64,000 bases of DNA. Source: an uncultured Lachnospiraceae bacterium. Lineage in GTDB: Bacteria; Bacillota; Clostridia; Lachnospirales; Lachnospiraceae. The notes below the pieces were generated by a model that was given only the letters and a program-made list of their open reading frames with translations, was not told the DNA's origin and did no database searches. The position numbers and the translations under genes are program-made. Below are positions 16,627 to 22,850 of this stretch, one piece after another. Within the stretch, counting starts at the first letter, position 1, and each line of letters begins with the position of its first letter. Location of the stretch: positions 46,202 to 110,201 of the forward strand of contig CALWRS010000006.1 in NCBI GenBank assembly GCA_944384025.1, given 5' to 3'.

Positions 16627-19197
16627 ATGAAAGTCAGATATCGAATTGTTATATTGAGTGTTGTCTTTTTGGCAGCGCTGTTTTACTTCTACCAAAAGGT
16701 GCCAGAGCACACGTATTTAGCGGAGCAAAAAACAGTTTCCGCTGCGTCTGCGACGCTGCCGGTCGTCTCTTTTTGCGTGGACGGCGCAGAGCTGAATCAA
16801 ACGCTTGGGTATACGTTTCAGCCGGAAGAAGCGCTGCTTCGCCAAACGATTACGCCGGTGATGTCCGACCTGCGGTTTCAGGTGCTGATTGACCAAAAAG
16901 AAAGCATTGTAAAGCGCTTAGTTTGTACGGTTATGGAAGTCTCCAGCGGTTTTGTCGTGGAAGAGACGGAGATTATGGCGCTTAAAGCGCAGGACGACGG
17001 CAGAGTTCTCGCCTCGGTTATTTTGACCGGAAATTATGCCCGCAACGTAGAATATACGATGCGGATTACGCTTACGACAAACGAGGGACGAAGCATTTAC
17101 TACTACACGCGGCTTTTGGTGACGGACGATTCTTCGCTTGCGCAAAAGCTCTCCTTTGCCATGCTCTTTCACAACAGCGTTCTTGATGAGGACGCGAAGT
17201 TTGCTATGGAGAAGTACTTAGAAACTTCGGCCACGAGCACCGGGCAGGATTATTCGCTTGTTACGCTCTCTGACAGCATCGAAGTAGTAGGCTACGGGGA
17301 GATGCGGCCGGTTCAGGTTGCGTGCGCGGTTCCATCGGTGACGGAGTACAACGAAAAGTATTTAAGCGTAACGCTTGATTTCTGGCTGGAAATCGTAACT
17401 GGCGACGCAAGAGAATCGTACTGGGCAAGAGAAGAGTACCGGTATTTTAGCGAGGGCGAAAAAAACATCCTCTATAACTACAAAAGAACGCTAAACGCCC
17501 GCTTTGACGGGACGCTTGTAAGCATTAACAAAAATCAGATCAAGCTTGGCCTTACGACCGAGACGAAGCTGAATTATTTGTTAAGCGAAAACGAAGATTA
17601 CCTGCTTTTTGTGCGCGACGGCGCGCTTTGGCAGTACGATATGAACACCAATACAATGGTTCGCGTCTTTGGGTTTTACAAAGAGGGGATGGATTATGCG
17701 CGCTACGATAACCGCGAGCACGATTTCAAGCTGATTTCGCTTGACGACGAAGGAAACGCCGACTTCGTCTTTTACGGCTACATTACCCGCGGAGAGTACG
17801 AAGGCCGCGTAGGGATTTTGTATTACCGTTATTATGCGAAAGAGCACCGTTTGGAGGAAATGATGTTTGTCCCCGTCAGCGTGCCTTACGAAATTCTAAA
17901 AGAAGAATTCGGCGAGTTTGTTTATCGAAACGAGTACGACGAGTTTTATTTTTCACTCTACGATACGTTATATCTGTACCGGACGCTTGTGAACGACTTC
18001 TCCGTTGTGACGGATCAGTTTTCGGGCGAATGGGTGCATTTCCCGGAAGAGAGCTTGCTTGTATATCCGGAGACGTCGGAGGATGCTTCCAATTCGGCGC
18101 TTGTATTTTACGATTTGGAAAATCGCGCGGCAACGAAAAAAGAAGCGAAAGGCGCAGAGCGGATTCTTCTTCTTGGAACAATTGACAACCGGATTGTGTA
18201 CGGACTGGCAAAAGAAGAAGACATTACGTTTTACGAGAACGGGACAGACTGCGTTCCCATGTACGCGCTGTTTATCGAGGAGCTAAGCGGAGAAATTGTA
18301 AAAGAGTATTCCAGCGAAGGGCAATACATTGCCTCTGCAGCGGTTGAGGGCAACGTTATATCCATTAAGCTTTGTAAAAAAACAGGAACCGCTCTCGTAA
18401 CTGTTACGGAAGACGGCGCAGAGCGCAGCTGGGAGCGTCCGCTGTACGAAGAAGCCGGAGACGATATTATTTTAAATATTAAGGAAAATGCGACGGAGCA
18501 TATTACAATTACAAGCCGGACGACGGATTTGATGCATAAGGAGTATTATCTGTCGCTTCCTTCCGGCTATCAGCTAGAGAGAATCCCTAAAAGCGCAGAA
18601 ACCATTTTCACTGTTTTAACGGACAATACGGTTGTGCGGGTAGATAACTGGCTAAAGCCGCGCTATTACACGGTCGCATACGGGCATGTGCTGCTTGCAA
18701 GCGAGAGTCTGGGCGCTTGCATTGCGGCGGCGGACGCGGCGCTTGGAACTGTTTACAGTGGGAATGGAACGGTTGTATGGATGCGCGGAACGAAGGCAAA
18801 CGCAGCTTCTCTTGTTAATTTTAAAAGGACATACGCGTCCGAAAATTTAAGTCCGGAGCAGGCGGTTTTGCAAATGTTTTTCGACTACAAAGGAGCGTCC
18901 GTTTCGGGAAGTGAATGCAACTTAAACGAAAAAGCGCTTCTTACGTGGCTTTTGGAAAAAACGTCGGGGACGCCGGTTTGCTTGTCCGGAGTAACGCTTG
19001 CGCAGGCATTGGCATTTGTCTCGGAACAAATTCCGGTGGCGGTTAGAAACGACGATTCTATTTTCGTTTTGACCGGCTATTCCTCCAGCTTAGTAACCTA
19101 CGTAGATCCGGCGCGGGGAAAGACGTTTACGGTCTCTTTGGAAGAATTTGCCGCCGCGCTTGAGCGGGGCGCAGTTTATTACACCTACCTCAAATAG
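16627..19197 (+). CDS. Large membrane-anchored extracellular protein with C-terminal degenerate C39-like domain
   Basis: 856 residues, no named function recognised. An N-terminal signal anchor (about residues 5-23, IVILSVVFLAALFYFYQ) is followed by a long extracellular part rich in beta strands, with repeated segments such as LLFVRDGALWQYDMNTNTMV that look propeller-like. The last 110 residues (from about PEQAVLQMFFDYKG, through CLSGVTLAQALAFVSEQIPV, to TYVDPARGKTFTVSLEEF) resemble the fold of C39-like cysteine peptidases, but the His expected before the GY motif is replaced (SIFVLTGYSSS), so it is probably not an active peptidase. It stands alone with its own promoter, divergent from the 157-residue gene. 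Confidence 0.7.
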   Translation: MKVRYRIVILSVVFLAALFYFYQKVPEHTYLAEQKTVSAASATLPVVSFCVDGAELNQTLGYTFQPEEALLRQTITPVMSDLRFQVLIDQKESIVKRLVCTVMEVSSGFVVEETEIMALKAQDDGRVLASVILTGNYARNVEYTMRITLTTNEGRSIYYYTRLLVTDDSSLAQKLSFAMLFHNSVLDEDAKFAMEKYLETSATSTGQDYSLVTLSDSIEVVGYGEMRPVQVACAVPSVTEYNEKYLSVTLDFWLEIVTGDARESYWAREEYRYFSEGEKNILYNYKRTLNARFDGTLVSINKNQIKLGLTTETKLNYLLSENEDYLLFVRDGALWQYDMNTNTMVRVFGFYKEGMDYARYDNREHDFKLISLDDEGNADFVFYGYITRGEYEGRVGILYYRYYAKEHRLEEMMFVPVSVPYEILKEEFGEFVYRNEYDEFYFSLYDTLYLYRTLVNDFSVVTDQFSGEWVHFPEESLLVYPETSEDASNSALVFYDLENRAATKKEAKGAERILLLGTIDNRIVYGLAKEEDITFYENGTDCVPMYALFIEELSGEIVKEYSSEGQYIASAAVEGNVISIKLCKKTGTALVTVTEDGAERSWERPLYEEAGDDIILNIKENATEHITITSRTTDLMHKEYYLSLPSGYQLERIPKSAETIFTVLTDNTVVRVDNWLKPRYYTVAYGHVLLASESLGACIAAADAALGTVYSGNGTVVWMRGTKANAASLVNFKRTYASENLSPEQAVLQMFFDYKGASVSGSECNLNEKALLTWLLEKTSGTPVCLSGVTLAQALAFVSEQIPVAVRNDDSIFVLTGYSSSLVTYVDPARGKTFTVSLEEFAAALERGAVYYTYLK

Positions 19198-19250: not shown

Positions 19251-19261
19251 TACCCTTGCTT

Positions 19262-19345
19262 GCAGTCGTGGCGGAATTGGCATACGCGCATGATTCAGGT
19301 TCATGTCCATGTAGGTGGGTGTGGGTTCAAGTCCCATCGACTGCA
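19262..19345 (+). tRNA. tRNA-Leu (anticodon CAG)
   Basis: 84-nt class II tRNA. Acceptor GCAGTCG pairs with CGACTGC, the discriminator is A. The anticodon stem CATGA/TCATG encloses loop TTCAGGT, giving anticodon CAG for codon CUG. A long variable arm (15 nt) and TTCAAGT T-loop are present; no encoded CCA. Confidence 0.95.
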
Positions 19346-19350
19346 TTGCA

Positions 19351-19384
19351 AGGGGTTCTGATTTTTTTCAGAATCCCTTTTTTT
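19351..19384 (+). terminator. Terminator after tRNA-Leu
   Basis: AGGGGTTCTG (19351-19360) pairs with CAGAATCCCT (19369-19378), one G-U pair, T-rich loop, followed by a T-run to 19384. The next coding gene starts only 30 bp further on. Confidence 0.82.
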
Positions 19385-19414: not shown

Positions 19415-20218
19415 ATGAAAAACAAAATTCTTTTTATTATATTTCCGCTTTCACAGGCGCTTATGGTTGCCGGATGCTGGATTGCAGTTGGACATTTAAA
19501 TGTGCAAGGGTTTTTATGTATTGCCTTTGCACTCGCCTCGGATGCGATTGTATTTCGGATTATGAAAAGCGCGTCCCAAAAAGAGGAAGTAGATAAAAAA
19601 GTTCGGGAAATGCGCTACTTGTACGAGTTGGAAGAGCTGAATAACCGCCTTGTGAACGAAAAGCAGGAAGAGCTTTTGCAGATGCGAAATATGCTATCTG
19701 AGGAGTTTCGGCGCGTAGAGCAGCGGCTTCGCACGAAAGGAAGAGAAGGCGCAGACGGAGAAATTGCAAAGTTTCGCGAAATGCTTGAGCGCACAAGACC
19801 GGATTTGTACACGGCAAATCACGTCGTAAACGCGATTCTTGCGGAGAAGCAAAAGCTCTGCCAGGCGCAATACGGCTTTTCTCTGACGGTGGATATGCAA
19901 GTGCCGGTGGAAGTGGCGCTCGACCCGATGCATTTGTGCAGCATTTTTTCCAACATTATTGACAACGCCTGCGAAGCTGTGGCGGATTTTCCGAAAGAGG
20001 AACGTTATATTCGGCTGTTTGCACGGATGAAAGGAAATTATCTGGTCATAGAGGCGAAAAATCCCGCCCGCAAGGAACACGTTGTGCGGGAGAGACGCGG
20101 CGGAAGAGGTTACGGAACAAAAATCTTAAATGACATTGCAGAAAAGTACGACGGAGAACTGCGAAGCGAATACAGTGGGGGAATTTACGCAGTTTCGCTT
20201 GTAGTTAAAGCGCTGTAA
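19415..20218 (+). CDS. AgrC-like GHKL ATPase protein with Asn at the phospho-acceptor position
   Basis: 267 residues. Two hydrophobic segments (about 4-25 and 31-48), a coiled coil (55-110), then a DHp/GHKL region of the HPK10 (AgrC) class: RPDLYTANHVVNAILAEKQK (X-region), the N-box IFSNIIDNACEAVADF (180-195) and the G-box GGRGYGTKIL (229-238). Where AgrC kinases have the RHD phospho-acceptor box this protein has QMRNMLSEEF, with Asn92 in place of His. It therefore looks able to bind ATP but not to autophosphorylate on its own helix. The two sensor proteins downstream have the His box but no ATPase. Start at ATG 19415; a longer frame upstream runs through the tRNA and is not real. Confidence 0.82.
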   Translation: MKNKILFIIFPLSQALMVAGCWIAVGHLNVQGFLCIAFALASDAIVFRIMKSASQKEEVDKKVREMRYLYELEELNNRLVNEKQEELLQMRNMLSEEFRRVEQRLRTKGREGADGEIAKFREMLERTRPDLYTANHVVNAILAEKQKLCQAQYGFSLTVDMQVPVEVALDPMHLCSIFSNIIDNACEAVADFPKEERYIRLFARMKGNYLVIEAKNPARKEHVVRERRGGRGYGTKILNDIAEKYDGELRSEYSGGIYAVSLVVKAL

Positions 20219-20230
20219 GGGAGGATAACG

Positions 20231-20932
20231 ATGCGGGTTGCGGTATGTGATGATCTTAAAGAGTCCTTAAAGGAGACAGAAAATCTTTTAAGGGAGTTGG
20301 ACTACGTCTCGGAATACAAGCTTTATCATAACCTGGATACGTTTTTAGAAGCGGTTTCGGCGGGAGAGAGATACGACGTAGTTTTGATGGATATTTGCTG
20401 GAAGAGCAGCCAAACCGGAATTGACGCGGTGGAGAGGCTTAGCGAAAAAACAAAGGTTATTTTCGTTACTGCGTACCCGCTTACATACGTCGAATCGGTT
20501 TACGGCAAGGAATTTACGCCCAGCGGCTTTTTAATGAAGCCGGTCAAACGGGAGTCTTTTCAAGCGCAGATGGACAAAGTGTATCGGCAGCTTGCGCAAG
20601 GAAAACAAGCATTGTGCGTGTCAATTCATTCCAAAAGCGTGCAAATTCCATATCTGGATGTTTGCTATTTGGAATCGCAGCTGCATAAAGTCGATATCAA
20701 CTTGTGCTCCGGAAAGAAGTATACGGTAACGTCAAGTATGCGGGAGATGAAGACGCGCCTGACGCAGGAATTTGTGACGATCCATCAGTCGTACGTTGTT
20801 AATCTGGCGCACGTTCGGGAAATCGGAAAGCGCGAATGCGTTATGGCAAGTGGGAAAACGCTTCCGCTTAGCAAAACATATGCGTCCTCTGCAAAGACCG
20901 CGTTTATGAATTTTTTGCGCAGGGAGGCGTAG
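20231..20932 (+). CDS. LytTR-family response regulator (AgrA-like)
   Basis: 233 residues. N-terminal receiver domain with acidic pocket CDD (6-8) and phosphorylation site Asp54 in VVLMDICWKSS; K-containing FLMKPVKRESF. C-terminal LytTR DNA-binding domain (about 125-230), with YLESQLHKVDINL and FVTIHQSYVVNLAHVREI, which binds direct-repeat operators. It lies 12 bp after the GHKL ATPase gene and 18 bp before the first sensor gene and is the evident output protein of the operon. Confidence 0.92.
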   Translation: MRVAVCDDLKESLKETENLLRELDYVSEYKLYHNLDTFLEAVSAGERYDVVLMDICWKSSQTGIDAVERLSEKTKVIFVTAYPLTYVESVYGKEFTPSGFLMKPVKRESFQAQMDKVYRQLAQGKQALCVSIHSKSVQIPYLDVCYLESQLHKVDINLCSGKKYTVTSSMREMKTRLTQEFVTIHQSYVVNLAHVREIGKRECVMASGKTLPLSKTYASSAKTAFMNFLRREA

Positions 20933-20950
20933 CGAAAGGGAGGGCAGGAG

Positions 20951-21775
20951 ATGAACATACTGCTTTCGCAAACGAGCGTTTTACTGGATACGCTTTTATT
21001 TACGAAAACGAGCGACATTTTGCTGGAGCGCAGGCTGGCAAAGCCGCAGGCGCGCATTGTCATTTTGCTGTTTTCGCTGTTTGCCCTTGTGAAAAATATG
21101 CTGACGTATAAGGTGGGTTTTCCGCTTACACGCCTTTTTATTGTGCTTGCGTGGCTGTTTACAGTGCTTTCGCTTGTTCTCGTATATAAAGGGACGCTGT
21201 TTCGGTACTTATTCGCCTTAGGCATGCACGCGACTTTTTCCGGATTGCTTTCGATGATTGCGGTATTTGCTACCGGTCTTCGCTATCCCAACTACGATAT
21301 GCTTGACGTTAACAGTGAAGGGACGAGCTTTTCCTTCCTGCTCTTTCTTTTGCTCCGGGGCATAACGGTTATGGCAATTGTCAAAATTAACCAAAAGGTT
21401 CGGGGGCTTTTGGAAGAATACAGCGGCGAGGGGAAAGGAATCCTTATCTTGTTTATATCCAATGTCACATGTATTTTCCTCCTGATTGAGACGCAGGGAA
21501 AAGACAGCTTTTTCGGTCTATTGGGATGCGCGGCAGGAGTTGCAGGCGCTTTGTACGCCGTTTTTCTTTTTTGCAGGGATGCGGAACGTCTTCGGGAAGA
21601 AAAGCGTCTAAGAGAGTACCGCCTTATGTATGAAAACGAGCGAATCCGGTACGAGCAGATAAAAGAAAAAGGAAGGGAAGCAGCGCAGCTGCGGCACGAT
21701 TTTGCGAATCAGATGCTTGCCCTGCAAAATTTATATGAGCAGGAGCGCATAAGCGCAGGGGAGGAGACATGCTAA
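20951..21775 (+). CDS. AgrC-like membrane sensor with His box but no ATPase domain (sensor 1)
   Basis: 274 residues. About six membrane segments (for example RLFIVLAWLFTVLSLVLVY, and GILILFISNVTCIFLLIE) followed by a charged coiled coil (from about 210) and the phospho-acceptor box QLRHDFANQMLALQNL with His249. It ends 25 residues later, with no N- or G-box. A normal AgrC continues with about 150 residues of DHp helix 2 and GHKL domain. The stop is not a recent frameshift, because the next gene begins in a 7-nt overlap with its own different membrane domain. Infer that it is phosphorylated in trans by the 19415 protein. Confidence 0.78.
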   Translation: MNILLSQTSVLLDTLLFTKTSDILLERRLAKPQARIVILLFSLFALVKNMLTYKVGFPLTRLFIVLAWLFTVLSLVLVYKGTLFRYLFALGMHATFSGLLSMIAVFATGLRYPNYDMLDVNSEGTSFSFLLFLLLRGITVMAIVKINQKVRGLLEEYSGEGKGILILFISNVTCIFLLIETQGKDSFFGLLGCAAGVAGALYAVFLFCRDAERLREEKRLREYRLMYENERIRYEQIKEKGREAAQLRHDFANQMLALQNLYEQERISAGEETC

Positions 21776-22578
21776 AGGAAATTTATCCCATGGTTGGGAT
21801 GTGGATGTTAGATATATACTTTTTGCTTCGAACGGCAGAAATCCTAGCGCAGCCGCAATCTTTTAAAGGGACAAAACCGAGGCTGCAAAGAATTTTTTTT
21901 GTTTTGCTTGTCGCCGCTGTAAAGCTTGCGACCTTGCAGTATATTACCAAGGAGTTTGTCGTGGCGGTAAGCATTTTGATGGTGTTTCTGACATATTTCC
22001 TTTTGGCGCTTTATCTAAAGAAAAAGTGGCTTTACGCGCTTTTTGCCCTTTTGTTTTATGCAGCAACGGCAGGCGCCGGTGAAAATCTGGCTTTGGTTGC
22101 CGCGCGTCTTGCAGACCCGCAGTTTGACCCTTACGTGCGTTCTTATCCTGAAGATTTGATTATTATCAGCATCTACCTTTGCCTTTTTTCCCTGCGCCAG
22201 CTTGTTACGATTGTGCTGTTTAAGAAGCTGCGCAGAAGGGGAGGCGTATCTTACGAATTGCAAGGCCTGCTCATTACCGTATATTTTCTGTCAAATCTGA
22301 TTCTCCATTACAACTTTCTTAGCATTCAGCTTGTCGCACCGCCGATTACTTGTCTGGGCGGTTTGATTGGAGCGCTTGGGACGATGCTTTCGGGCTATTG
22401 GCTGTATCAAGACGGCGAGCGGAGAAAAACAGAGAAAGAGCTTTTGGAGTTGGAGCAAATGTACGCGCTGGAGCGCGAAAAGTACGAAAAGCTCAAAGAG
22501 AAGGAAGAACAGATGGCGCAAATCCGGCACGACTACGCAAACCAGATGCTTGTGCTGGAGCGAATGCAAAATACATAA
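21769..22578 (+). CDS. AgrC-like membrane sensor with His box but no ATPase domain (sensor 2)
   Basis: 269 residues, same plan as sensor 1 but divergent in the membrane part: about seven hydrophobic segments (for example FVVAVSILMVFLTYFLLALY), a coiled coil rich in Glu/Lys (about 215-250) and QIRHDYANQMLVLERM with His254. It ends 15 residues after the His. None of the downstream frames continue into a GHKL domain. Start overlaps sensor 1 by 7 nt, so translation is coupled. Two non-identical sensors with the same truncation argue for a designed split rather than decay. Confidence 0.78.
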   Translation: MLKEIYPMVGMWMLDIYFLLRTAEILAQPQSFKGTKPRLQRIFFVLLVAAVKLATLQYITKEFVVAVSILMVFLTYFLLALYLKKKWLYALFALLFYAATAGAGENLALVAARLADPQFDPYVRSYPEDLIIISIYLCLFSLRQLVTIVLFKKLRRRGGVSYELQGLLITVYFLSNLILHYNFLSIQLVAPPITCLGGLIGALGTMLSGYWLYQDGERRKTEKELLELEQMYALEREKYEKLKEKEEQMAQIRHDYANQMLVLERMQNT

Positions 22579-22801: not shown

Positions 22802-22850
22802 GAAGAGAGGCAGGTCTGTTGTTTTAGCAGATCTGCCTCTCTTCATTTTT
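22802..22850 (+). terminator. Terminator of the split-kinase operon
   Basis: 16-bp stem GAAGAGAGGCAG... (22802-22817) with its complement (22829-22844), one G-U pair, then ATTTTT. Confidence 0.88.

Follow-up and report, generated by a model that had tools for sequence, protein, structure and literature searches.

We analysed a 64,000-nucleotide stretch of an uncultured Lachnospiraceae genome (assembly GCA_944384025.1, contig CALWRS010000006.1; henceforth the window) and found in it an operon that probably encodes one AgrC-type (HPK10-like) histidine kinase distributed over several chains. The operon comprises a GHKL ATPase subunit without the phosphorylatable histidine (K), a LytTR response regulator (RR) and two multi-pass membrane receptors (S1 and S2) that carry this histidine. 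By sequence, the phosphoacceptor histidine and the ATPase domain are located on separate polypeptides. We propose that K phosphorylates the receptors in trans and that the receptors pass the phosphate to RR, and we assign this reading a probability of roughly 0.85.

The evidence begins with the anatomy of K. The protein matches HATPase_c_5 (PF14501, 3.4e-13; Pfam matches were considered up to E 1), and its N-box (SNIIDNACEA) and G-box (GGRGYGTKIL), read directly, are both intact. The H-box reads QMRNMLSEEF, within a stretch that resembles the helices of the dimerization and histidine phosphotransfer (DHp) domain. Asn92 stands at the position of the histidine, and the acid after the histidine and the Asn at +4 are missing as well. 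Open reading frames and the Pfam match thus bear out what an initial annotation, made from the letters alone, had said of these boxes. Its description of the ATPase as a soluble-side protein did not hold, because a hydropathy scan predicts two N-terminal transmembrane (TM) helices. Against PF14501, K scores 49.8 bits and the runner-up in the genome 31.3. The seven other matches among the eight detected at E 1 lie in frames of 462-570 residues, six of them over the cut-off, and a search of the whole genome with K as query at E 0.01 returned K alone. Nor does any of the eight PF14501 matches follow S1 or S2, so the receptors have no detached GHKL part behind them.

S1 and S2 carry what K lacks. 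Their H-boxes are QLRHDFANQM (His249) and QIRHDYANQM (His254), and the chains end 25 and 15 residues after the histidine, respectively, without a GHKL domain, as first noted and now confirmed from the reading frames and Pfam. The hydropathy scan gives six (strict) or seven (loose) TM helices in S1 and four or six in S2. Each receptor has a single insignificant Pfam match (E 0.73 and 0.38) and none to a HisKA family, and Pfam detected no Hpt/P1 or CheA-type domain in K, S1 or S2. The two are paralogues, 31% identical along residues 11-261 of S1 (E 2.2e-20), with identities of 27% in the sensor and 50% in the H-box region. When we compared profiles with PDB sequences, S matched best the N-terminal part of the AgrC kinase-module construct 6e52/6e95 (E 2.2e-5), and K matched VanS 8dvq (4.2e-5), the histidine kinase 9m08 (0.0016) and then the AgrC ATPase structure 4bxi (0.0029). 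S and K thus resemble complementary halves of a histidine kinase. A multi-pass sensor with an RHDxxxN H-box (S1, S2), a GHKL domain with N- and G-boxes (K) and an adjoining LytTR regulator are features of AgrC-type or HPK10 kinases.

The same complementary split recurs in relatives. We located loci by K, K-profile and S-profile searches, read the neighbourhoods and tallied the loci by hand; most regulators in relatives were recognized from a LytTR motif pattern or on visual inspection. This gave 20 split loci (the window included) in 20 genomes from 13 genera, all in the window's family, and two further loci in which the parts are fused. At least 11 genomes with a confirmed split locus belong to an evenly drawn family sample of 397, and in genus g257, K was detected in 7 of 16 genomes at E 1e-20, each time with an S protein and a regulator. 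The initial annotation had suggested surveying the family for the window's four-gene order; the split recurs and its genes stay together, but the order varies among loci. Against K-RR-S-S in the window, we read RR-S-S-K in G281 (G numbers designate the genomes compared), RR-S-K in six other genomes of the G281 genus and in G710, RR-K-S-S in G451 and G308, RR-K-S in G242, S-K-RR in G301 and G725, S-S-K-RR in G716 and in G164, whose second S is broken by a stop, RR-S-K-S in G170, RR-S-S-S-S-K in G304, RR-S-K-K in G299 and S-K-S in G328, with no regulator among the reading frames shown. Two receptors per ATPase, as first described, holds for the window but is not the rule: the S:K ratio is 1:1 in ten of the 20 loci, 2:1 in eight, 4:1 in one and 1:2 in one.

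The four-receptor locus (G304; L131, G304:C138, 5613-11385) encodes a LytTR regulator, four tandem truncated receptors whose H-box regions are 87-91% identical and whose sensors are 49-78% identical, and a 443-residue kinase with Arg in place of the H-box histidine. The layout is inverted in G299 (L099, G299:C72, 101-3951), with one 148-residue His-bearing membrane protein and two full-sensor kinases that have Gln for His. Two loci were omitted from the tally. At one (G209; L134, G209:C24, 2839-4131), a GHKL ATPase domain is joined in one frame to a flagellin-like N-terminus beside a 165-residue receptor, which is either a gene chimera or an assembly error; this protein was left out of the tally for its N-terminus and retained among the His-less proteins counted below. 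At the other (G353; L124, G353:C12, 1456-3458), a receptor lies beside a His-less GHKL protein whose frame apparently changes before the G-box, so that the pair is either decaying or affected by a sequencing error; it was excluded from both counts. S matches in G511 and G583 (another family) and in G706 run into contig ends, and we did not count them. The Erysipelotrichaceae loci L031 and L033 (read) and L032 and L034 (from the table) proved to be ordinary full-length kinases, and short soluble GHKL proteins (e.g. L039-L045, L048) were rejected as K since they keep the RHDxxNH box. An 11-kilobase contig (L098, G183:C2) encodes a single LytTR regulator surrounded by five full-length AgrC-like kinases in tandem.

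Loss of the histidine coincides with the presence of a receptor partner. The scored set consisted of 116 distinct proteins that the K profile matched at E up to 1e-3 as far as model position 230; the His column was read from the alignment. L076 (without a recognizable N-box), L065 (truncated at the end of its contig) and L160 83-715 (by eye an unrelated HATPase) were dropped, leaving 113 proteins, 98 with and 15 without the histidine. A partner was defined in a pattern scan as a His-bearing, GHKL-less membrane protein with at least two TM helices, encoded on the same strand within 5 kilobases or fused. Such a receptor adjoins or is fused to 15 of 15 His-less proteins and 1 of 98 His-bearing ones (Fisher p = 8.8e-18; here and below, the p-values are descriptive, since the rows are not phylogenetically independent and reading was broader for loci with short frames). 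With proteins present only in S-profile loci (L102-L130) excluded and flanks of at least 900 base pairs (bp), the counts are 14/14 and 1/56 (p = 7.8e-14); raising the flank minimum to 1300 bp gives 14/14 and 1/42 (p = 2.6e-12). The G164 row was kept in the restricted set: although an S match first drew attention to its locus, its K figures in the K-profile list as well. The histidine is replaced by Gln in seven of the 15 proteins, by Asn in three and by Ser, Ala, Glu, Arg or Lys in the others. The Asn at +4 survives in 1/15, versus 69/98 of the His-bearing proteins, whereas the ATP-site motifs persist (N-box in 15/15, G-x-G of the G-box in 14/15). Nine further K proteins (six from genus g257 and those of G716, G710 and G725) also lack the histidine in the aligned column.

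Among 99 genomes, the closest relative of K is encoded in G019, a member of the window's own genus (31% identity, E 1.3e-34). It forms the C-terminal half of a 601-residue protein, the N-terminal half of which is a multi-TM sensor (five TM helices, strict hydropathy). This chain runs from the sensor through the H-box ALLRHDYKNRLI (RHDYKN), a linker and two TM helices to a His-less GHKL module, 32% identical to K over the 242 residues compared, and its gene has a LytTR regulator directly upstream. A second fused chain (G170:C3; 589 residues) has the same layout and also lies behind a regulator. The sensor, the DHp part and the catalytic ATPase (CA) part do not share a chain in the window; among relatives, they do so in these two proteins only, as a two-module form. 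Because two proteins that are separate elsewhere occur fused in relatives, the two halves probably work together. We found no frameshifted full-length originals of the window's proteins in its genus, the closest candidate being the fused G019 chain.

Both halves are under purifying selection in genus g257. Across its seven K-bearing genomes, the median ratio of nonsynonymous to synonymous substitution rates (dN/dS) is 0.14 for K (19 of 21 pairs measurable), 0.20 for S (22 of 28) and 0.10 for RR (12 of 21), the ratios being approximate as most dS values exceed 1. Over the measurable pairs, K ranges from 0.10 to 0.21 and S from 0.11 to 0.33, the largest value obtained.

We propose the following mechanism. 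S1 and S2 would be receptor subunits, each with a membrane sensor, a coiled coil and a phosphorylatable histidine in an HDxxN motif, and K would be the catalytic subunit that binds ATP. The membrane-proximal coiled coil and the DHp-like helices would let K pair with either receptor, the GHKL domain of K would phosphorylate the receptor histidine in trans, and the phosphate would travel from K-bound ATP to the histidine of S and on to the Asp of RR. AgrC itself autophosphorylates in trans, as established by mutant complementation. A free receptor could perhaps act as the phosphatase of the LytTR regulator, because S keeps the HDxxN phosphatase motif, in the way free CheA3 does. The second DHp helix, kept in most other S proteins that we read, is missing from the window's receptors and from those of genus g257; K may complete the DHp bundle for such receptors.

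Two receptors on one ATPase would feed two inputs into one regulator. In paralogous receptors encoded at one locus, the H-box region is more alike than the sensor in 12 of 12 pairs (seven loci), albeit barely so in the G328 pair (51% vs 46%). This pattern fits differing inputs and a common partner, but sensors diverge faster in most kinases anyway. The strongest competing view is that S1 and S2 act only jointly, as a heterodimer with K, and report one composite signal. We consider it the less probable arrangement but one to be taken seriously: the overlap of the S1 and S2 genes suggests coupled synthesis, and the two differ most in the sensor, yet a single receptor accompanies a single K in half of the loci, and one locus has four receptors.

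A second alternative concerns origin. We built a tree of the GHKL domain without the DHp region by a quick method (80 rows, 146 columns). The His-less label changes 7 times on this tree against a shuffled mean of 13.9, and the starred branches force at least two changes; the His-less state likely has several origins, although their number is unsure. K retains a multi-TM sensor of its own in G304, G170:C1, G299, G308 and G725, and the sensor of the G304 K resembles, by eye, those of its four receptors. To judge from these proteins, the history looks like duplication of a whole kinase, with one copy losing the ATPase and the other the histidine, followed by loss of the K sensor and multiplication of receptors. 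Conversely, the fused chain could be ancestral and the split could stem from gene fission. That the window K, the G281 K and the fused G019 module form one group (SH-aLRT 97) speaks for fission. We nevertheless regard it as unlikely, given that K proteins with their own sensors are expected from whole-kinase duplication and that the two TM helices between the modules of the fused chains give the impression of a junction between two complete proteins. More broadly, we see an even chance that these loci represent a two-component class akin to a cytokine receptor and its kinase, in which one to four interchangeable receptors would share a His-less ATPase (with the reverse in G299), which arose more than once by duplication and complementary loss, and in which K supplies the second DHp helix in the window's clade.

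It is quite improbable, in our estimate, that K is an ATP-binding pseudokinase that regulates receptors phosphorylated by another histidine kinase. The loss of the histidine, the following acid and the +4 Asn from K would agree with such a role, and the genome holds seven other PF14501 proteins as candidate kinases. However, these score at most 31.3 bits and were not recovered by the whole-K search, two fused chains unite a His-bearing with a His-less module, and the ATP-site motifs are retained across the His-less proteins. The view that K, S1 and S2 are truncated, functionless remnants in decay can practically be set aside, as the initial annotation had argued: each chain alone is an incomplete kinase, decay does occur in this class (the stopped receptor copy in G164, the lost G-box frame of the His-less K in G353) and purifying selection is not measurable on the window's own S1/S2 pair, but the complementary split is common to 13 genera, dN/dS is low for both halves in g257, one-chain fusions exist in relatives, no GHKL remnant lies behind S1 or S2, and the operon is compact with ribosome-site-like sequences.

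Besides these cases of decay and the dependence among rows that makes the p-values descriptive, several observations weigh against a distributed kinase. At the thresholds used, the window's genus has the system in two genomes only, one split and one fused. The dS between S1 and S2 is saturated, and purifying selection is thus demonstrated in relatives only. With the second DHp helix absent from the window receptors, neither the helix bundle nor the docking surface for the regulator can be canonical. One short receptor lies beside a full, His-bearing kinase (L101 in G396), flanks are shorter than 900 bp in 28 of the 98 His-bearing rows, and the acid after the lost histidine is kept in 8 of the 15 His-less proteins. 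In the G451 K, the motif reads HYG and lacks the initial Gly of G-x-G, so that ATP binding is less assured for this protein.

The four genes are tightly packed, as noticed at the outset, with gaps of 12 bp between K and RR and 18 bp between RR and S1, and with the start of S2 overlapping the stop of S1 by 7 bp (Table 1). All four start with ATG. A ribosome-site-like sequence of the GGAGG type precedes RR, S1 and S2, and a weaker GAGG/AGGG precedes K. The regulator between K and the sensors, also part of the first description, is supported by Pfam matches to LytTR (3.4e-16) and Response_reg (5.5e-9). An 856-residue protein encoded upstream has no Pfam or NCBIfam match at E 1; its end may resemble a C39-type peptidase domain. 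K and S1 as queries against plasmids gave no match.

Table 1. Features of the K-RR-S1-S2 operon and its surroundings in the window
Feature	Position	Strand	Basis
856-residue protein, upstream of the operon	16627-19197		
tRNA-Leu(cag), upstream of K	19261-19346		
Terminator-like hairpin between tRNA-Leu(cag) and K	19350..19379	+	Consensus scan only
K, His-less GHKL ATPase subunit, 267 residues	19415..20218	+	Open reading frame, Pfam
RR, LytTR response regulator (receiver and LytTR DNA-binding domain), 233 residues	20231..20932	+	Pfam
S1, multi-TM receptor, 274 residues	20951..21775	+	Open reading frame, hydropathy
S2, multi-TM receptor, 269 residues	21769..22578	+	Open reading frame, hydropathy
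Terminator-like hairpin downstream of S2, 20 pairs	22802..22844	+	Consensus scan only

If the proposed mechanism is correct, the halves of an AgrC-type kinase are naturally separated here, and one could test, without kinase mutants, which way the reaction runs, what each half contributes and how receptors can be exchanged. The system would also point to a direct way of connecting several sensors with a single regulator, and might serve as a chassis for circuits with multiple inputs. For annotation, we caution that the receptors have no significant Pfam match and that the ATPase risks being labelled a complete kinase.

The system resembles AgrC-AgrA of Staphylococcus aureus in its multi-TM sensor, RHD H-box, HATPase_c_5-type GHKL domain and LytTR regulator. 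AgrC is a dimer that carries the DHp part with His239 and the CA part with the G-box in one chain (excerpts of PMC6755735), whereas the window has DHp and CA on separate proteins and two receptors for one ATPase. It also differs from Agr quorum sensing in that AgrB (PF04647) had no match in the genome at E 1; the assembly is 96.7% complete, and the 14 control genomes, which likewise gave no match above the cut-off, provide no positive control. Among the matches listed from the open-access PMC literature, none describes an AgrC/HPK10 kinase in split form or a His-less ATPase shared by several receptors, and the available excerpts of PMC8895600 describe no split AgrC/HPK10 kinase. HisKA proteins without HATPase (1556 of 42417 in a SMART count) have been proposed as possible split kinases (excerpts of PMC3591291), and like S1 and S2 they indicate that DHp-only chains exist, there in another kinase class. 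That set is a database count given in those excerpts without named partner ATPases, and S1 and S2 match no HisKA family. In Synechocystis, the split CheA homologue Hik36/Hik43 (PilL), two gene products that interact in a two-hybrid assay (excerpts of PMC7656254), is likewise a kinase divided over separate genes. The CheA3/CheA4 pair of Rhodobacter sphaeroides, in which neither protein autophosphorylates alone, has its phosphorylated domain and its kinase domain on different proteins, as we propose for the window, and free CheA3 dephosphorylates the regulator; HE/DxxN/T is named there as a phosphatase motif (excerpts of PMC3591291). CheA3/CheA4 differs in belonging to the CheA class and a cytoplasmic cluster, in using a P1-type domain, in being one pair without membrane receptors that carry their own sensors, and in acting on CheY6 rather than a LytTR regulator. 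Split kinases are already known in the CheA class.

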